DNA of 64,000 bases from Flavobacteriales bacterium. Its GTDB lineage: Bacteria; Bacteroidota; Bacteroidia; Flavobacteriales_D; Sanyastnellaceae. Location: assembly GCA_002863125.1 (NCBI GenBank), contig PKEB01000004.1, positions 124,001 to 188,000 on the forward strand, written 5' to 3'. This document shows, piece after piece, positions 15,119 to 23,284 of this stretch (its first letter is position 1; each line of letters starts with the position of its first letter). Below the pieces are notes generated by a model. The model made no database searches. It saw nothing but the letters and a program-made list of their open reading frames with translations, and was not told the origin of the DNA. The position numbers were made by a program, and so were the translations under genes.

Positions 15119-15632
15119 ACCAGCCGGCGTATTCGACGTAGCGATCGGCGGTGGCGGCAAGGTGCTCCTGAAGCTCAGGGCGGACCTCCCCTCGTTGCTT
15201 TGCTGGCACGCCGGCCCACAGCGTTCGTGGCGGCACGACCGTTCCTTCAAGCACGACGGCTCCGGCTGCAATGACCGCGTGCGCGCCGATGACCGCACCA
15301 TCCAATACGACCGCATTCATGCCGATCAATGCACCGGCTTGCACGTGGGCGCCGTGGACCGTTGCGTTGTGGCCGATGCTGGCCCCTTCATCGATCTTGG
15401 TTTCGCTCTTGTTGAACGTGCCGTGGATTACGGCACCATCTTGGATGTTCACCCGCGGCCCGATGGTGATGGGTGCGACATCCCCACGGATGACGCAATT
15501 GAACCAGCACGATGCGTTCTCCCCGATATAGACTTCCCCGACCACGGTGGCATTCGGCGCAAGCCAGCAGGTCGGGTGGATGGACGGGGTAAGGTCACGG
15601 CATGGGAGGATGATGGGCTGATTCGGGTTCAT
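15108..15632 (-). CDS. Gamma-class carbonic anhydrase-like hexapeptide protein
   Basis: A 174-residue left-handed beta-helix protein of the YrdA/PaaY/gamma-carbonic anhydrase family. Hexapeptide repeats run through most of the chain. Likely zinc ligands are the histidines in AVIHGT, SIGHNATVHG. The ATG at 15632 overlaps the yifB stop as ATGA (15629-15632), so it is coupled to yifB. Many family members bind zinc or iron, but catalytic carbonic anhydrase activity is not certain from sequence. Confidence 0.88.
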   Translation of the reverse strand: MNPNQPIILPCRDLTPSIHPTCWLAPNATVVGEVYIGENASCWFNCVIRGDVAPITIGPRVNIQDGAVIHGTFNKSETKIDEGASIGHNATVHGAHVQAGALIGMNAVVLDGAVIGAHAVIAAGAVVLEGTVVPPRTLWAGVPAKQRGEVRPELQEHLAATADRYVEYAGWFNR

Positions 15633-17143
15633 GGTATTTCGGCTTTTTCCCACCAACGGGGTCGGTCAAAGATGCGCAATTGACTCGCAAATGCCGCATC
15701 CACTTCCCCAATTTCAAGGGTGTTTGTTCGTGTGTTTTGCTCCAAAGCAGCATGCAGGCGCGCTACGGCTTTCAGGTGCCCAATGCCACGCGCCGAAGTG
15801 CTGAAGGCGTTGGCGTGCTGCTGGAAGACGGCCTCGGCTGCAGGGGAGGTGTGAACGGCTGAATGCGCAATGAGCCACTTCCGGGTGGCGGCAACCTGCT
15901 TACGCACGGCGTGGAGCGGTGGGGCCGGTTGCGCAGCCGATGCTCCGGCGTTCATCGTTTCTACATGCAGGGCAAACCGTTCTGCGATGGGTCCGGAAAG
16001 GCGCTTCAAGTAGCGCTGGACATGCCCTGCGGTGCAGGTGCAATGCCGCGGCCCCTCGTTGAAGCGTCCACACGGACAGGGGTTGGACGTTGCAACAACC
16101 CAGCCCGATGGGGATTCAATTCGACTCAGGCGGGCCCGCGAAAGGAGGAATCCTTTGCCTTCCAGAGGCCCGCGAAGCGCTTCAATGCAATCCCTTGAAA
16201 ATTCGCACAGTTCATCAAGGCAGAGCAATCCGCGATGTGCCAAGCTCAATTCTCCAGGCGTCCAAGTTCCGTTCGGGTCAATGGTCCCCAGCAGCCCCGC
16301 TGCGGTGCACTGGTGGTGGGGGGCCCGCAGGGGTGGCTGTTCGGTCGCCGACAATGGGATTCCCTTGGCCCGGTAAATGCATTCGACCTCGTCGAATTGG
16401 TGGGCTGTCAACGGGGGTAAGAGTTCGTGCAGGGCACGTGCCATGTGGGATTTTCCTGTTCCTGCTGATCCAATGATGAGCAGCGGCAATTGACCGGCAG
16501 CAGCAATGGTTAGGGCTTTCACCTGAAGGGGAGTCAGGCGCAGGCTATTCCAGCTTTGCCCGTCCATTGGGTTCCAACGCTCGCGATGACCCCATGCCTG
16601 TTTCTGTGCGATGACAGGGAGGACTTGGCGGCCTTGCAAGTGCGCCACGGCTTGCTCGAGGTGATTGGTTCGCAACGCTTTGCCCGGTGGTCCCCAGGAA
16701 GCGAGTATTTGGCTCCATCCGTCCGGGAGCAAAAGGGCGTCCACGGAGAGGGGGGCGGGGGTGCTCCGCGGGGGTTCGTCGCGCTTGCTTGCGGGCGGTT
16801 GGAGGTGCCCGTCTAACCCCATTTCACCGGCGGAGAATAAGTGGGGCAACGCTTCAGCCGGGACAACCCCTGCGTGCCCCAACAGCGCCAACGCAATGGG
16901 CAAATCCAGTGCCGTGAGTTCTTTGAGTTGATCGGTGGGTCGGATGTGCAACGTGAACGCTCCCGCGACGCGGGGCAGGCCGCAGCATTCGAATGCGGCA
17001 TAAATGCGGGACAGGGCGCTCCGACCGGCGGTCCATGGAATGCCGCTGACGTGAAATCGCGCACCCCGTGTTCGGTGCAGCTGCACATGCGCCACCCGGG
17101 CGTTGGGCACGGTTGCTCCGTACCCGAGGGTCGTAACCAGCAT
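15629..17143 (-). CDS. YifB/ComM-family Mg-chelatase-like AAA ATPase
   Basis: A 504-residue protein. The N-terminal third is the Lon-protease-like ChlI domain (LPIALALLGHAG near residue 85; active-site residues of true proteases are not expected). Then the AAA+ core follows, with Walker A GSAGTGKS near residue 225 and Walker B LLCLDEL near 310, and the Mg-chelatase-like C-terminus. ComM, the best-studied relative, is a hexameric helicase that promotes branch migration during natural transformation. It lies 10 bases downstream of gmhA. The domain order and length are complete. Confidence 0.92.
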   Translation of the reverse strand: MLVTTLGYGATVPNARVAHVQLHRTRGARFHVSGIPWTAGRSALSRIYAAFECCGLPRVAGAFTLHIRPTDQLKELTALDLPIALALLGHAGVVPAEALPHLFSAGEMGLDGHLQPPASKRDEPPRSTPAPLSVDALLLPDGWSQILASWGPPGKALRTNHLEQAVAHLQGRQVLPVIAQKQAWGHRERWNPMDGQSWNSLRLTPLQVKALTIAAAGQLPLLIIGSAGTGKSHMARALHELLPPLTAHQFDEVECIYRAKGIPLSATEQPPLRAPHHQCTAAGLLGTIDPNGTWTPGELSLAHRGLLCLDELCEFSRDCIEALRGPLEGKGFLLSRARLSRIESPSGWVVATSNPCPCGRFNEGPRHCTCTAGHVQRYLKRLSGPIAERFALHVETMNAGASAAQPAPPLHAVRKQVAATRKWLIAHSAVHTSPAAEAVFQQHANAFSTSARGIGHLKAVARLHAALEQNTRTNTLEIGEVDAAFASQLRIFDRPRWWEKAEIP

Positions 17144-17153
17144 GGAAGGTGGT

Positions 17154-17729
17154 TTACTGGGCGCGTTCGATCAGGTCAATCCAGGCGTGGATGACTTTGA
17201 TGTGGACCTCTTGAACCCGATCAGCATAGCCGTCCCACGGTACATCGACCGCAGCATCGCACAGCGCTTTCAAGGCTCCGCCTCCGCGTCCGGTCAGTCC
17301 GATGACGGTCATTCCTTTTGCCTTTGCGGCTTTGGCTGCTTCGAGTACGTTGGCACTGTTGCCACTCGTGGAAATGGCGAGCAGGCAATCTCCGGATTGG
17401 CCAAGTGCTTGCACGAATCGGGCGAAGACCTGGTCAAATCCGTAGTCGTTTCCGACGCACGTGATGTGGCTTGGGTCGCTGCATGAAATGGCCGGTAATC
17501 CCGGGCGTTCGCCTCGGTAGCGGCCGCTCAGTTCTTCTGCGAAGTGCATGGCATCGCTCATGCTCCCTCCATTTCCACATGAAATGATTTTCCCCCCTTG
17601 GGCAATGGCTTGGCACATGGCAATGCCCGCCGCTTCAACCGCATCCATGAATGCAGCGTCGTTCCGAACCGTATCCAGTAGCCGGGCTGCTTCGGAAAAG
17701 TGTTCGTCGAGTCGGTTGCGTTGATTCAT
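17154..17729 (-). CDS. gmhA: Phosphoheptose isomerase-like SIS-domain protein
   Basis: A 191-residue SIS-domain protein. CGNGGSMSDAMHFAEELSGRY near residue 50 and LAISTSGNSANV near 115 match GmhA, which converts sedoheptulose 7-phosphate to heptose 7-phosphate for LPS core or S-layer sugars. No other heptose gene lies nearby, so the substrate assignment rests on these motifs. CACCTTGC four bases before the ATG is a one-mismatch version of the leaderless-type element. Confidence 0.88.
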   Translation of the reverse strand: MNQRNRLDEHFSEAARLLDTVRNDAAFMDAVEAAGIAMCQAIAQGGKIISCGNGGSMSDAMHFAEELSGRYRGERPGLPAISCSDPSHITCVGNDYGFDQVFARFVQALGQSGDCLLAISTSGNSANVLEAAKAAKAKGMTVIGLTGRGGGALKALCDAAVDVPWDGYADRVQEVHIKVIHAWIDLIERAQ

Positions 17730-17799
17730 GGGTGCAAGGTGGAGCGCAAGGTTGGACGTTCGCCGTTCAATTTATGCAAGGGGCCGCAGACTTCACGGG

Positions 17800-20274
17800 T
17801 CAACGGCGAAATGCCGCCAATCCCGATTCGAGGAATTCTACAAACTTGCTGGCATCGGGGTCATACCCTACGCCCTCCCCCAGTGGAGTTCCGTCGTGGT
17901 CGAGCATGACGTAAAACGGCTGGGAATTGGTGTTGAATTGCGATGCTTGCATGTACGACCACTTGTTTCCGACGGTCTTGATTTTAAAGGTCTTTCCACC
18001 GTAGGATTCTTCGCGGCGTTCCGATTCCGGCAAATCCTTGCGTTCATCGACGTAGAGGCTGACGAGCACCACATCATTGGTGAGTAGGTCGACCACTTGC
18101 GAATCGGGCCATACCTGCTCTTCCATTTTGCGGCAGTTGACGCAGGCCCAACCGGTAAAATCCAAAACAACTGGCTTGCCCTCGGATTTCGCCGCTTCCA
18201 ATCCACTTTGATAATCGGTGAAGCGCGCTTCAACGTGCCCACTGGATTCACCGGAACCGCCGTGTCCACTGCCATCGTTCCATTCGCTGTAGAAAAGCGG
18301 GGGCGGGAAGCCACTGATCAAATTCACGGGCGCGCCCCACATCCCTGGCAAAAGGTAGACGCCGAGGGTAAAGAAGACCATGCCCATGCTGAATCGGAAG
18401 ACTCCGATGCGCTCAGTTTTCGAGTCGTGGGGGAAGAGGATCCACCCGAACAGGTAGAAAGCAATGCACAAGGCAACCACCACCCAGATCGCGATGAACA
18501 GCTCGCGTTGCAGCAGTCCCAGCTGAAGCACTAGGTCGGCGTTGGAAAGGAACTTGAAGGCGAACCCAATTTCCAGGAGTCCGAGTACCACCTTGACGCT
18601 GTTGAGCCAACCGCCGGATTGCGGCAGGGAATTCAACCACCCGGGGAAAGCCGAGAAGAGCATGAAAGGCATGGCCAACGCTAGTGAGAAACCGAACATC
18701 ACGGCCGTGGGTGCGGCGAAGGAGCCCGTCGCGGCACCGGCCAATGCACTGCCGACCAATGGACCGGTGCACGAGAACGATACGATGGCCAATGTGGCCG
18801 CCATGAAGAAGATGCCGATGAGTCCTCCGCGGTCGGCGGCTTGGTCGGTTTTGTTGGCCCAACTCGTGGGCAATTGAATTTCAAAGGCTCCCAAGAAGCT
18901 CGCACCGAAGACAATCAGCAGGAGGAAGAGGAACACATTGAAAAACGGATCGGTCGAGATCACATTCAGGATATCCACCCCAAAGACGGCCGTCAGCAAC
19001 AAGCCGAGGCCGGTGTAGATGAAGATGATGAAGAACCCGTAGATGAGGGCGTTTCGGATGCCTTCGCTGCGCGTTTTGGATTGCTTCGTGAAGAAGCTCA
19101 CCGTCATGGGAATCATGGGGAATACGCAGGGCGTCAACAACGCAGCAAAGCCGAGGAGCATGCCCAAGAAGAAGACGCCCGCGAGCCCTTCCTCTTCTGT
19201 GCCGTCCGCTGCTTCTGTAATCGACCCTTCGTTCGTGCCGTGGTCGCAGAGTCCCTGCAGCGGTGGGCAGTATTCCGGTCGGTCAGCCGCTGTCTTGCGG
19301 TCGGCAAACGCAGCCTCGAAATCCAAATCCGGTGGGAAGATGCACTTCTCCTCATCGCACGCCATGAACGTGATGGCGCCGGTGATGACCTCGGTGCCGG
19401 CGTCCGGTCCGGTGAATGATTGAACGAAGTAGACCTCCTCTTCGAACATGTTGACGTCCATTTCAAACGTCGGGTCGAACTGGACGAGGGGATCGCATTC
19501 GGTCACCTCACCTTCGGCTTCAAACCCCTCGGGCCAATCGATTCGGAAGGCCGTCGGCATGGGGCCGTCGAAACTTTCCAGGTGCTGGCTGTACGTGTGC
19601 CAACACGGGTCCACAACGGCATGGAACACCAAGTCATACTCGTCGCCGTTTTCGTAGATGTTCACGTCCCACACAACGGGCTCCAAGAGGCCGCTTTCGG
19701 CTTCCATCGGTTCCCCGTGGTCGGCGGCATCGTGGTCTCCACAGAGGTGCTGCGACTCCGGGCAGTAAGTCGGCAACGCCGGCGAAACATTGTCCAAGGC
19801 GATGGAGAAATCGATGTCTTCGGGCGGGAGGCAACGCGATGCGTCGCACACCATGAAACTCAAGAAGCCGGTCACGTCTCCGCTTCGCGCGTCGGCGTCC
19901 AAGCGAACTTTTTGCACCCAGTACACCTCCTCTTCAAAGAATTTCAAATCCATCATGAAGTTGGGGTCGTATTCCACCAGCGGATCGCACTCGGTGACGT
20001 CACCGACCTTTTCGACTCCGTCGGGAACCGCTACCTCGAAGTAGGTGGGCAAGGGACCGTTGGGATCGTCGAGGAATTGGCTGTAGATGTGCCAGCATGC
20101 GTCGACGCTGGCATGGAATACCACGTCCAATTCGTTCTCACTATCTGTTTCGTGGACCGAGAATTCCCACTTGACCGGTTCCAAGATTTGTGCGAAAGCA
20201 GTCGTCCATCCCCAGGTGAGCAGAACGGTCAAGGCAGCGATTGCCTTTCCAATTCGAAGATTCGATTGTTTCAT
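17800..20274 (-). CDS. dsbD: DsbD-like thiol:disulfide interchange protein with duplicated periplasmic domain
   Basis: An 824-residue protein. Signal peptide to about residue 28, two tandem DsbD-alpha-like domains (31-160 and 197-323), a DsbD transmembrane core of about eight helices (365-655) with TPCVFPMIP and a second SCTGP cysteine, and a thioredoxin-like C-terminal domain with active site WACVNCR near residue 712. It should carry electrons from cytoplasmic thioredoxin to periplasmic proteins. Each N-terminal copy holds six cysteines at matching places (60, 96, 143, 148, 171, 178 and 224, 260, 306, 311, 336, 343). A single N-terminal copy is the usual arrangement. A TATCTTCG element lies upstream at 20282-20289. 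Confidence 0.92.
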   Translation of the reverse strand: MKQSNLRIGKAIAALTVLLTWGWTTAFAQILEPVKWEFSVHETDSENELDVVFHASVDACWHIYSQFLDDPNGPLPTYFEVAVPDGVEKVGDVTECDPLVEYDPNFMMDLKFFEEEVYWVQKVRLDADARSGDVTGFLSFMVCDASRCLPPEDIDFSIALDNVSPALPTYCPESQHLCGDHDAADHGEPMEAESGLLEPVVWDVNIYENGDEYDLVFHAVVDPCWHTYSQHLESFDGPMPTAFRIDWPEGFEAEGEVTECDPLVQFDPTFEMDVNMFEEEVYFVQSFTGPDAGTEVITGAITFMACDEEKCIFPPDLDFEAAFADRKTAADRPEYCPPLQGLCDHGTNEGSITEAADGTEEEGLAGVFFLGMLLGFAALLTPCVFPMIPMTVSFFTKQSKTRSEGIRNALIYGFFIIFIYTGLGLLLTAVFGVDILNVISTDPFFNVFLFLLLIVFGASFLGAFEIQLPTSWANKTDQAADRGGLIGIFFMAATLAIVSFSCTGPLVGSALAGAATGSFAAPTAVMFGFSLALAMPFMLFSAFPGWLNSLPQSGGWLNSVKVVLGLLEIGFAFKFLSNADLVLQLGLLQRELFIAIWVVVALCIAFYLFGWILFPHDSKTERIGVFRFSMGMVFFTLGVYLLPGMWGAPVNLISGFPPPLFYSEWNDGSGHGGSGESSGHVEARFTDYQSGLEAAKSEGKPVVLDFTGWACVNCRKMEEQVWPDSQVVDLLTNDVVLVSLYVDERKDLPESERREESYGGKTFKIKTVGNKWSYMQASQFNTNSQPFYVMLDHDGTPLGEGVGYDPDASKFVEFLESGLAAFRR
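19306..19686 (-). repeat. Second copy of the DsbD N-terminal domain (residues 197-323)
   Basis: This parallels 19795-20184 at protein level. Shared blocks include LEPV-x-W, VFHA-x-VD-x-CWH-x-YSQ, TECDPLV, FEEEVY-x-VQ and a C-x4-C motif followed by PP. The DNA is diverged, so this is an old duplication. Confidence 0.85.
19795..20184 (-). repeat. First copy of the DsbD N-terminal domain (residues 31-160)
   Basis: This is the counterpart of 19306-19686, with the same order of CWH, TECDPLV, FEEEVY and C-x4-C motifs. Both copies are followed by a short linker with a YCP-x4-LC motif. Confidence 0.85.
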
Positions 20275-20281
20275 AGCTCCG

Positions 20282-20289
20282 CGAAGATA
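20282..20289 (-). promoter_or_regulatory. Candidate -7 element for dsbD
   Basis: On the minus strand TATCTTCG (20289 to 20282) lies seven bases before the ATG at 20274, a one-mismatch TAnnTTTG. The transcript would have a leader of only a few bases. Confidence 0.35.
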
Positions 20290-20332
20290 CTACCTGCAGG
20301 GGCGCTTTCCGCCGGCCCGGTGCCAACGACTG

Positions 20333-21031
20333 TTAGAGCTCAATTTCCTCCCCGAGGGCGAGGCCAAATGGGCGGCGGATGAGCCAACTTCCCGCGTAAA
20401 CGAGTGGCGTATCGACCAGCGCTACGAGCACCTTGAAGACGAAGCCGTTGAGCAACAGGCTGGTGAAGAGGGCCCATTCGATTTGCCCCAGGCTGCACAT
20501 CAGAAACAGCACGGCAAACGTGTCGACAAACTGCGAGGGAATGGTGCTGAGGTTGTTGCGGAGCCAGAGTTTTTTGCCGTTGGTCAGGCGTTTCCAGAAA
20601 TGAAAAAGCCGCACGTCGAGGAATTGTGCTAGCAAATAGGCGGCCATCGAGGCGCTGACCGCGACGATGGTGGAACCGAAAACGTGGTCAAATTCGGCGT
20701 TGCTCACGGGCGACCAATCGGCTGCAGGCACGGACTGGCTGACCGTCACAATGACCAACGTGAAGGCGCTGGCGAACAATCCAGCAAGGACGACTTCGTT
20801 GGCCCGGCGCTTGCCAAAGCACTCCGAGATGAGGTCGGTGACCAAAAACGTAACGGGGTACGGGAGCAGGCCCACGCTTTGTTCGAAGGTCAATCCTTCA
20901 ATGGGACTCCAGTGAAAAAACTTTCGGAAGATCAAGTTGCACGCCACCAGGCTCGCGATGAACAGTGCAGCGAGAATGAGGTAGATGCGCAAGGCGCGTT
21001 GCCGCAGGTCGGCGGAGTGCTCAGAGGTCAT
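20333..21031 (-). CDS. Queuosine precursor transporter (YhhQ/VUT family)
   Basis: A 232-residue membrane protein with about six helices. The family segments are LLPYPVTFLVTDLISE near residue 55, with an acidic residue in a helix, and RNNLSTIPSQFVDTF near 165. YhhQ-type proteins import queuine or preQ0/preQ1 for tRNA modification. The ATG at 21031 is chosen over a TTG at 21040 that overlaps the tilS stop. The gene lies directly behind tilS, another tRNA-modification gene, which supports the role. Confidence 0.88.
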   Translation of the reverse strand: MTSEHSADLRQRALRIYLILAALFIASLVACNLIFRKFFHWSPIEGLTFEQSVGLLPYPVTFLVTDLISECFGKRRANEVVLAGLFASAFTLVIVTVSQSVPAADWSPVSNAEFDHVFGSTIVAVSASMAAYLLAQFLDVRLFHFWKRLTNGKKLWLRNNLSTIPSQFVDTFAVLFLMCSLGQIEWALFTSLLLNGFVFKVLVALVDTPLVYAGSWLIRRPFGLALGEEIEL

Positions 21032-21036
21032 GCGGC

Positions 21037-22008
21037 TCAAGTTAACGGTATCCAGTGCAATGCGTTGCCGCGGCGTTCAACCCGCGCCGTTGCGCACACG
21101 AAGTGCGCTCCGGATTCAACTTGAGCCTCGGTCAGGTGCAGCAATTCGGGCACCGCGCGTGCGGCGATGCCGTGCTGGTGCGCCAATCCGTGCAGGATTT
21201 CCGCCCGCAGCGGTTCCGCGCGCCAAGCCGACAGGTCCAGCTCGCCCTTTCCGTCGCTCACTTTCCAGCAGCGTGCAGTGGCAGCATCGCGTTCTGTCGT
21301 GAAGAAGGACCGCAGCGATTCAAACCGATCCGCCCAATGGGCCACGTGGGCCGTCGTGCCGGGCCGGAGTGAATCGAACAAAGGCAGCACCTCGTGCCGA
21401 ATTCGGTTTCGGAGGTAATCCGGTTTGGCGTTGGAAGCATCCTCGCGGTATGCCACGTTCCAGGCGCTGCACGCCTCGGCGAGCTCAGCTCGAGTCAGGG
21501 CGAGGAATGGGCGCAGGAGCCCACGTTCCGCATTTACAGCGGGCATGGCAGCGAGCGCGAGCGGATCGGCAGACCGCATGAGGTGGAGCAGCACGGTTTC
21601 TGCTTGGTCGTTGCCGTGGTGCGCCGTGACGATGTAGGCCTGGTGGCCCTGGCGGTCGCTGGCTTCGGTGCGCAACCGTTCGAAGTGGGCATATCGGATC
21701 TTCCGGGCTTCGGCTTGCACGCCGTGCTCGGTCGGATCCACTTGGGCGTTGAGCACGTGACAGGGGACGCCGCGTGCCTCACTCCACTCTTCGACCAGCG
21801 CTTGGTCTGCATCGGAGGCTTCGCCGCGCAGGTGGTAGTTCACGTGTGCGACGTGAAGGTTGATGCCCACGCGGTGAAGGGTTTCGGCCAAAACCATGGA
21901 GTCCAGGCCGCCGCTGACACCGGCGATGAGTGTGGCGTTGGCATCGATGCCCTGCCGCCCAAGCCACTGCCGCATGTGCTGCACCAATCTGTCGCGGTTA
22001 TTCGCCAT
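21037..22008 (-). CDS. tilS: tRNA(Ile)-lysidine synthase, short form
   Basis: A 323-residue N-type ATP pyrophosphatase that attaches lysine to C34 of tRNA-Ile(CAU). The PP-loop VSGGLDS is at residues 31-37, with HVNYHLRG near 75, TAHHGNDQAET near 130 and a YREDASN...RNRIRHEVLP block near 190. The protein is about 100 residues shorter than many bacterial TilS enzymes and appears to lack most of the C-terminal TilS domain, as in some short forms. The start overlaps pabB by 11 bases. Confidence 0.93.
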   Translation of the reverse strand: MANNRDRLVQHMRQWLGRQGIDANATLIAGVSGGLDSMVLAETLHRVGINLHVAHVNYHLRGEASDADQALVEEWSEARGVPCHVLNAQVDPTEHGVQAEARKIRYAHFERLRTEASDRQGHQAYIVTAHHGNDQAETVLLHLMRSADPLALAAMPAVNAERGLLRPFLALTRAELAEACSAWNVAYREDASNAKPDYLRNRIRHEVLPLFDSLRPGTTAHVAHWADRFESLRSFFTTERDAATARCWKVSDGKGELDLSAWRAEPLRAEILHGLAHQHGIAARAVPELLHLTEAQVESGAHFVCATARVERRGNALHWIPLT

Positions 22009-23284
22009 CGGCCGTCAAAGTTTGCATCATCGCTTCCGCCTTCAGCAGGCATTCGGCGTATTCACTCGCGGGATCGCTCAAGGAGGTGATGGCGCCGCCG
22101 ACGTGCATGCTAATTCGCGGGGTGGCGGCGTTGTACAGCAGGCTGCGGATGACCACGTTGAGGTCAAAATCGCCGTTGGGTTGAAAGAAGCCAACGCTGC
22201 CCGAGTAGACGCCCCGGCGGCTGGCTTCGAGTTCGTCGATGATTTGCATGGCCCGCACCTTGGGGGCGCCGGTCATGGACCCCATCGGGAAGGTGGCCCG
22301 CAAGATGGATTCGGTGGTCACATCGTCCCGCAGCGTGCACTGCACGGTCGAAATCATTTGATGGACCGATTCAAAGCGGTGGATGCCGAACAATTCAGGG
22401 ACGTGCACCGTGCCGGGGTTGGCAATGCGGCTCAAATCATTGCGCACCAAGTCGCAGATCATGACGTTTTCCCCGCGTTCCTTGGGGTCGTTTTGCAATT
22501 GATGAGCCAGCACGTCGTCTTCTTCCGGGGTGCTTCCGCGTCGAATGGTGCCTTTGATGGGAGAGGAAATCAACTGATCGCCTCGGCGCTTCAAGAACAG
22601 CTCGGGGGAGCCGCAAATCACGTGGAATTCGCCGGCTTTGACCAAGGCAGCGTAAGGCGGCTGGGTGAAGTGGTGCAAGCGCACGAAGGCGTCCCATGGG
22701 GATTCCAAATGCTCATCTGCACTCCACTCTTGGCAGAGGTTCATCTCGTAGATGTCTCCGCGTTGGATGTGCTTTTTGACGCGGTGGGCGCGCTGCAAAT
22801 ACGTACTCTCATCCCAGCGGGGTTTGAGCGTGATGCCCGGTCCTGGCGGCAGCGCCTCAACAGCGGCATCGCAAGCTGTTTGCACGAATTGTAGGGTGTC
22901 CACGGCATCGGGTTCGTTGTGACCAGAGGCGATTTCGCACCCCGTTTTGTCCCCGCCCCAAGCGATGACCAGACGCGGCTCGACCCAGTGCAGGGGTGGC
23001 AAACCGATGGCGTCGGGTCGTTGTGAATCGAGGCGTTCGATGCCGTTTTTCAGGTCGTACCCCAACCAGCCGAATGCCCAAGTCCGGGCTCCTTCAGGAT
23101 GCAGAAAGGCCTGGAGGGCGCTGAGGCTATCGGAATCGGTGCCGTCCCAGGTGAACGAGCGCCGTGCCCCAATGGCAAGGAAGCAGGTACCGCTCGCGTG
23201 CGCATCGAAGTACAGGCTTGCATGCGTTTCCCGTTCGAAGATGGCCTTCAAATTCGGGAGGATACGCAGTGCAGGTGCTGCCAT
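21998..23284 (-). CDS. pabB: Aminodeoxychorismate synthase component I
   Basis: A 428-residue chorismate-utilising enzyme. The PIKGTIRRG motif near residue 235 with a lysine is typical of PabB rather than TrpE. IYEMNLCQEW near 175, ENVMICDLVRNDLSR near 265, MGSMTGAPK near 340 and the C-terminal YSGSVGF/DLNVVIR complete the chorismate-binding fold. It makes 4-amino-4-deoxychorismate for folate; no glutaminase (pabA) or lyase gene (pabC) is adjacent. The gene follows lpdA by 14 bases and overlaps tilS. Confidence 0.9.
   Translation of the reverse strand: MAAPALRILPNLKAIFERETHASLYFDAHASGTCFLAIGARRSFTWDGTDSDSLSALQAFLHPEGARTWAFGWLGYDLKNGIERLDSQRPDAIGLPPLHWVEPRLVIAWGGDKTGCEIASGHNEPDAVDTLQFVQTACDAAVEALPPGPGITLKPRWDESTYLQRAHRVKKHIQRGDIYEMNLCQEWSADEHLESPWDAFVRLHHFTQPPYAALVKAGEFHVICGSPELFLKRRGDQLISSPIKGTIRRGSTPEEDDVLAHQLQNDPKERGENVMICDLVRNDLSRIANPGTVHVPELFGIHRFESVHQMISTVQCTLRDDVTTESILRATFPMGSMTGAPKVRAMQIIDELEASRRGVYSGSVGFFQPNGDFDLNVVIRSLLYNAATPRISMHVGGAITSLSDPASEYAECLLKAEAMMQTLTADGE

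Follow-up and report, generated by a model that had tools for sequence, protein, structure and literature searches.

The stretch of DNA analysed here (hereafter the window; 64,000 nucleotides in full) comes from a marine Flavobacteriales bacterium and contains a dsbD gene whose product carries two alpha domains ahead of its membrane and gamma domains (Table 1). The gene lies in a conserved order of pabB, tilS, a YhhQ-like gene, dsbD, a SIS-domain gene and comM, which occupies positions 15629-23284 of the window and is also found in L031-L100, with names for the neighbouring genes (pabB, tilS, YhhQ-like, SIS and comM) assigned by reading the sequences. The order from pabB to comM is kept around dsbD in many single- and double-alpha orthologues. 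It should be noted that a metagenome record titled Chryseobacterium gleum (L060) has the dsbD and the gene order of the window clade, and this title may be wrong.

Table 1 Features of the dsbD gene, with positions numbered along the window.
Feature	Positions	Strand	Basis
dsbD gene, 824 aa, alpha-alpha-membrane-gamma	17800..20274	(-)	Pfam DsbD_N (2 stretches), DsbD_TM, Thioredoxin_7
Probable signal peptide, residues 1-28	20191..20274	(-)	Judged by eye from the sequence
Alpha copy 1, residues 29-160	19795..20190	(-)	AlphaFold2; VIA-align Z 12.4 (6c29), 11.3 (1jpe)
Predicted catalytic pair C143-x4-C148, copy 1	19831..19848	(-)	Aligned with E. coli C103/C109; pair in 135/135 homologous domains
C96, proposed staple partner of C171	19987..19989	(-)	Co-occurrence
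C60, proposed staple partner of C178	20095..20097	(-)	Co-occurrence
Tail and linker 1, residues 161-194, with C171 (19762-19764) and C178 (19741-19743)	19693..19794	(-)	AlphaFold2 confidence
Alpha copy 2, residues 195-323	19306..19692	(-)	VIA-align Z 11.5 (6dps_F); Pfam DsbD_N 32.9 bits alone
Predicted catalytic pair C306-x4-C311, copy 2	19342..19359	(-)	Motif, conserved in homologous domains
C224, proposed staple partner of C343	19603..19605	(-)	Both absent from L019 copy 2
C260, proposed staple partner of C336	19495..19497	(-)	Co-occurrence
Tail and linker 2, residues 324-364, with C336 (19267-19269) and C343 (19246-19248)	19183..19305	(-)	AlphaFold2 confidence
Membrane domain, residues 366-660, with C383 and C502	18295..19179	(-)	Pfam DsbD_TM 80.5 bits
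Gamma thioredoxin-like domain, residues 682-824, with CVNC 711-714	17803..18231	(-)	Pfam Thioredoxin_7; PDB 3f9u

The N-terminal part of the protein has cysteines at residues 60, 96, 143, 148, 171 and 178 and again at 224, 260, 306, 311, 336 and 343, and the remainder has them at 383, 502, 603, 711 and 714. Four motifs recur between the copies: CWH (residue 60 in copy 1 and 224 in copy 2), TECDPLV (94 and 258), C-x4-C (143 and 306) and YCP (170 and 335). The initial annotation, which had described two homologous N-terminal domains in this gene, was therefore borne out, its motifs and cysteine numbers being exact. The span it gave (19306-20184) covers residues 31-323 and leaves the trailing YCP...LC pair of the second copy (19246-19269) outside.

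Fold and family assignment

We compared the protein to Pfam and found DsbD_N in two stretches (47.5 bits for the whole protein, cut-off 25), DsbD_TM (PF02683; 80.5 bits, cut-off 27.1) and Thioredoxin_7 (40.6 bits, cut-off 27), the latter containing CVNC at residues 711-714. The membrane and gamma domains of a DsbD are thus both present, and the Ig-like N-terminal alpha domain with a catalytic-type cysteine pair is present twice over. The NCBIfam model of the DsbD subfamily, NF001419 (PRK00293), scored 134.9 bits, below its cut-off of 330. Judged by its domains, this protein is a member of the wider DsbD family which falls outside the NF001419 subfamily model. The gamma domain matched PDB entry 3f9u (E = 3.3e-44), described as a putative exported cytochrome c biogenesis-related protein.

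When scanned alone, copy 2 was recovered by DsbD_N (32.9 bits, above the cut-off of 25) and copy 1 had no Pfam match up to E = 1. An AlphaFold2 model of residues 27-351, built with 31 two-domain sequences, had a mean pLDDT of 91 and a pTM of 0.52; in this model the alpha domains are confident and their mutual placement is not. Foldseek against the PDB gave the N-terminal region of ScsB (6c29) as the top match for the N-terminal region. With VIA-align, copy 1 matched 6c29 over 132 residues (Z = 12.4, 3.1 Å) and the alpha domain of E. coli DsbD (1jpe) over 108 residues (Z = 11.3, 2.4 Å), and copy 2 matched the N-domain of Neisseria meningitidis DsbD (6dps_F) over 114 residues (Z = 11.5, 3.0 Å), while the best rows for other kinds of fold reached only about Z = 7. 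Structure comparison thus upheld the earlier assignment of the second segment to DsbD-alpha, and both copies have the alpha fold in the models.

Likeness to the E. coli alpha domain at the sequence level was weak (hhalign probability 8%, E = 0.004), with C143/C148 aligned to C103/C109, and profile A1 had no matches to PDB sequences up to E = 1. A search of the source genome with PF11412 found nothing, although the scan of the protein itself passes, so this search is insensitive here. Given the weak hhalign result and the lack of a Pfam match for copy 1 alone, it is fold, motif and context that tie the protein to E. coli alpha. The sequence sets for the two structure models and for the trees described below were picked by hand.

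Conservation of the cysteine pairs

Conservation was assessed in 135 alpha domains from 76 distinct homologous proteins. We started with the 99 core-bearing frames obtained from 102 loci and a few added sequences, and removed exact duplicates and frames with an incomplete alpha. All 135 domains have the active-site cysteine pair, which is spaced by four residues in 134 of them and by three in copy 2 of L097, and both copies keep it in all 59 two-domain proteins of the set.

Among the 16 distinct proteins nearest to ours, the 12 N-terminal cysteines are invariant save for C224 and C343, both of which are absent from L019; C383, C502, C711 and C714 are invariant. Within these 16 proteins the membrane domain is the most conserved part (mean pairwise identity 0.906), followed by gamma (0.754), copy 1 (0.737) and copy 2 (0.618). 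These figures suggest that the main task stays with copy 1. The cysteines of both copies are not there by chance, and only C143/C148 and C306/C311, among the 12 at the N-terminus, look catalytic.

The additional cysteines of each copy

The four remaining cysteines of each copy co-occur in pairs (copy 1 numbering is used for all domains). C60 and C178 are either both present or both absent in 134 of 135 domains; in the exception, L027, the last cysteine lies one residue further on. The same holds for C96 and C171 in 134/135, the exception being copy 2 of L099, where the end of the contig cuts the domain. C171 is present in 83 of the 84 domains which have C96, and C178 in 52 of the 53 which have C60; C60 itself occurs only where C96 is present (53/84 domains). 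The two copies of one protein share the same cysteine state in 57/59 proteins, and in the nearest group the second pair, C224 and C343, has been lost as a whole from copy 2 of L019.

This co-occurrence, with C60 never found without C96, fits two nested disulfides in each copy. These would be C96-C171 and C60-C178 in copy 1 and C260-C336 and C224-C343 in copy 2, and they would pin the tail behind each alpha domain onto that domain. We therefore read the four extra cysteines per copy as probable structural staples of each domain's tail and not as a relay. The initial annotation had treated the trailing YCP-x4-LC cysteines as a unit, which does not hold, since C60 tracks C178 and C96 tracks C171. 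A role for the trailing cysteines as an extra redox pair was rejected because C171 was scored without C178 in 31/83 domains (including L027, with its second cysteine one residue further on). A position of C60 in the cap loop was also rejected: in the weak alignment to E. coli it falls on G38, and C96 lies nearer to the cap loop.

It should be noted that the raw counts overstate the number of independent events. On the tree, four changes are needed for each of C60 and C178 and one for each of C96 and C171. Counting well-supported branches only, C60/C178 has two independent pairs (sign test: P = 0.5) and C96/C171 has one (P = 1). Independent support for the predicted cysteine pairing is thus thinner than the counts imply.

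The model was also examined for order in the tails. In ten-residue blocks around and after the last strand, mean pLDDT in the window protein was 97, 91 and 54 for copy 1 and 97, 96, 83 and 41 for copy 2. This corresponds to an ordered tail of about 17 residues past the last strand in copy 1 (pLDDT near 90) and about 24 in copy 2 (average above 80). The first tail is modelled with confidence to about residue 176, placing C178 at the edge of the ordered part (block mean 54). An unstapled relative (L070), modelled with the same 31 sequences as a control, fell below a pLDDT of 50 from 5 and 4 residues past the last strand of its two domains, respectively. The difference between the two models is consistent with a pinned tail.

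Distribution of the double alpha architecture

A search with the whole protein matched 38 of 40 genomes (the source genome included), some of them partly. A scan of the collection of named genomes yielded 72 loci. Most came from metagenome assemblies titled Flavobacteriales, and the others from the isolate Salibacter halophilus and a few records with different Bacteroidota titles. After removal of duplicates and incomplete frames, 59 of the 76 distinct proteins had two alpha domains and 17 had one. Of 150 genomes from the order (the source genome included), 143 matched a profile of single alpha domains (A2), and at least 41 have two adjacent alpha matches in one open frame, across eight family codes. 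Across the phylum, 85/118 genomes matched, and 7/118, from four family codes, had two matches in one frame.

The double architecture is ordinary in the order and sporadic beyond it. It is no peculiarity of this protein: the outcome that the initial annotation had named as counting against its reading, a double architecture already standard in the family, largely holds within the order (at least 41/150 genomes). Within a partial coverage of the literature, we recognised no title or abstract reporting a DsbD with two redox-competent alpha domains. Features that may be new are a catalytic-type pair in both copies, alpha domains that have been relocated repeatedly, and the staple cysteines.

Alpha domains outside the tandem

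We read 78 further loci and found alpha-membrane-gamma and alpha-alpha-membrane-gamma arrangements as well as others with a separate alpha gene. Such a gene (frames of 146-173 aa) stands beside a single-alpha DsbD in L171-L176 and L179 and adjoins a two-alpha DsbD in L178 and L170. In L170 the second copy within DsbD has lost its cysteines, the first copy is intact and the adjoining separate alpha is intact. In the wider set of 273 rows used for calling cysteine states, the same gene may appear twice with different ends, and cysteines were called by a simple pattern; L201, from a Spirosoma plasmid, was left out.

Several other arrangements were observed, and across these loci alpha behaves like a module that can change place. 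L161-L164 have alpha at both ends of DsbD (alpha-membrane-gamma-alpha), followed by a separate alpha gene. DsbD of G037 (L165) is split into two frames (525 and 256 aa), representing either a broken gene or an assembly error. The alpha of DsbD in L093 has no catalytic pair, and a separate intact alpha was not found in that locus.

In L109, L110 and L115, DsbD has 85-100 residues ahead of the membrane part and no detected alpha, and an alpha gene with a signal-like N-terminus and C-x4-C lies upstream on the same strand, at most 130 bases away. In L116, L117 and L119, the cysteine pair is missing from the alpha region of DsbD itself, and the alpha encoded upstream has C-x4-C. Since intact alphas are here encoded separately from a DsbD which itself has no alpha or has lost its cysteines, alpha probably works in trans.

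History of the duplication

After thinning by identity, a domain tree was built for 55 proteins (99 domains) with the four extra-cysteine columns masked. It placed 50 of the 52 stapled domains together (SH-aLRT 96) and all 52, including the single-domain L027 and L100, together at 89. In L090, one copy is the sister of the other (99). In a wider tree the sampled stapled domains again grouped (97), and the copies of L090, L108 and L178 were each joined (99), which indicates separate duplications in these proteins. Many forks were unresolved in these short-domain trees. A tree of the core, for which 52 of the 55 proteins could be used (three were too short), showed single- and double-alpha proteins intermixed.

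One ancestral duplication, with all first copies set against all second copies, was rejected under the model used (AU test: P = 0.0015). This test covered 66 domains of 37 proteins, hand-picked from the 135 domains of 76 proteins, with groups named after a tree had been seen, and the two copies exchanging sequence by gene conversion would lead to the same rejection. On the question of whether the duplication is lineage-wide, the doubling is common to the full-length proteins that were read from the genus, and beyond the genus it seems to have arisen more than once. Single- and double-alpha orthologues share the tilS-YhhQ-like-dsbD-SIS-comM neighbourhood (e.g. L061-L064 and L047-L056), mostly with pabB ahead of tilS where the locus extends that far, and alpha copies have therefore probably been gained or lost in place.

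Proposed electron route and clients

In E. coli, DsbD takes electrons from thioredoxin and relays them by way of its membrane domain and C-terminal domain to its single N-terminal alpha. This alpha is the hub serving the thioredoxin-fold proteins DsbC, CcmG and DsbG (PMC7347389). By homology to this protein, we infer that a cytoplasmic reductant would pass electrons to C383/C502 of the membrane domain and on to the CVNC of gamma (711-714), and that gamma would reduce the C143/C148 disulfide in alpha copy 1 or the C306/C311 disulfide in copy 2. Each alpha copy would in turn pass electrons to thioredoxin-fold envelope proteins, probably those of the TlpA/ResA type and of the cytochrome c pathway and not DsbC.

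The source genome contains a single match to the whole protein and no PF13462 (DsbA/DsbC-type) matches. Ten AhpC-TSA loci were read there, and seven of these have CxxC in a TlpA-like domain along with a signal or lipobox, as judged by eye. There are also two Cytochrom_C_asm matches, which we take to be of the CcsBA type. The absence of PF13462 matches, the seven TlpA-like CxxC proteins and the two Cytochrom_C_asm matches together make proteins of the TlpA/ResA type the likely clients.

Our main reading, to which we give a probability of roughly 0.6, is that the two alpha copies are fed in parallel by gamma. If alpha works in trans, two alphas in one chain need no relay series, and two parallel outlets from one gamma are favoured over an internal cascade. 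The initial annotation had proposed that two redox-competent copies serve either two clients or such a cascade; two clients or outlets is the best reading, and the cascade is both unnecessary and opposed by those loci in which the sole intact alpha is separately encoded. Parallel copies would raise the capacity of the outlet, divide the client list or do both, with copy 1 under the tighter constraint. Redundancy of the two copies without any specialisation would fit equally well.

The protein might instead have a single working outlet, the other alpha copy being mainly a spacer or docking domain, as seems to be so in ScsB. In Klebsiella aerogenes ScsB the N-terminal cysteines are 133/137, a pair in just one half of that region, the only other cysteine before the membrane part being C11 in the signal region. 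Lower conservation of copy 2 (mean identity 0.618 versus 0.737 for copy 1) and the loss of its cysteines in L170 point the same way. We nevertheless consider this unlikely because every copy 2 in the 59 two-domain proteins keeps its pair, which a mere spacer would not need.

It is more doubtful still that the extra cysteines form a metal (e.g. copper) site or a redox switch of the cap loop in place of static staples. C96 does align just ahead of the cap-loop region of E. coli (in a weak alignment), and copper(I) binding by S. Typhimurium ScsB and ScsC is reported in an excerpt of PMC8900818. However, these cysteines are gained and lost pairwise, as would be expected of disulfides, and there are no copper genes among the conserved neighbours pabB, tilS, YhhQ-like, SIS and comM. 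A series cascade, in which gamma reduces one copy and this copy reduces the other before clients are reached, was suggested by the two like cysteine pairs in one polypeptide and is very improbable, given that the E. coli alpha partners cDsbD, DsbC, CcmG and DsbG have the thioredoxin fold and alpha is Ig-like with a shielded site (excerpt of PMC7347389), that the same conserved locus holds single-alpha orthologues and that separately encoded alphas do exist.

Carrying the parallel outlets further, the outlet of Bacteroidota could be a plug-in system in which client-tuned alphas are duplicated, end-fused or free shuttles and gamma is their common socket. The staples of the window clade would then fix the tail by the cap loop and set the opening of each copy to its client. 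We put this forward as a conjecture that is more likely wrong than right. An outlet hub which has been copied, moved or freed offers a direct test of whether alpha dictates client choice and works in trans. There is also a warning here that extra cysteines in a redox protein are not always a relay, as most of those in this protein look like structural staples.

Comparison with known systems

The two-alpha DsbD of the window is a real feature and a variant common in its order. It resembles E. coli DsbD in its core, domain order and alpha fold (1jpe, Z = 11.3), with C143/C148 aligned to C103/C109. The E. coli protein differs in having one alpha domain with a C-x5-C pair, compared to two with C-x4-C here, and our protein has four extra cysteines per copy and is encoded in a genome without a PF13462 match.

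The initial statement that known DsbD proteins have one N-terminal alpha domain is true of E. coli, but it overlooked the tandem Ig-fold N-terminal region of ScsB, which is named in the title of Furlong 2018 (as cited in PMC9675693). ScsB is a DsbD relative, and its 6c29 structure was our top Foldseek and VIA-align match. In contrast to our protein, with its two pairs and putative staple cysteines, ScsB (one sequence, from K. aerogenes) has one periplasmic N-terminal cysteine pair (133/137), and its gene lies within an scsABCD cluster, whereas the neighbours of the window dsbD are different.

The single-alpha DsbD proteins of Bacteroidota share the membrane and gamma domains with the window protein and, in near relatives, the gene neighbourhood as well. 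They differ from it in having one alpha domain, to which some add a second alpha encoded next door.
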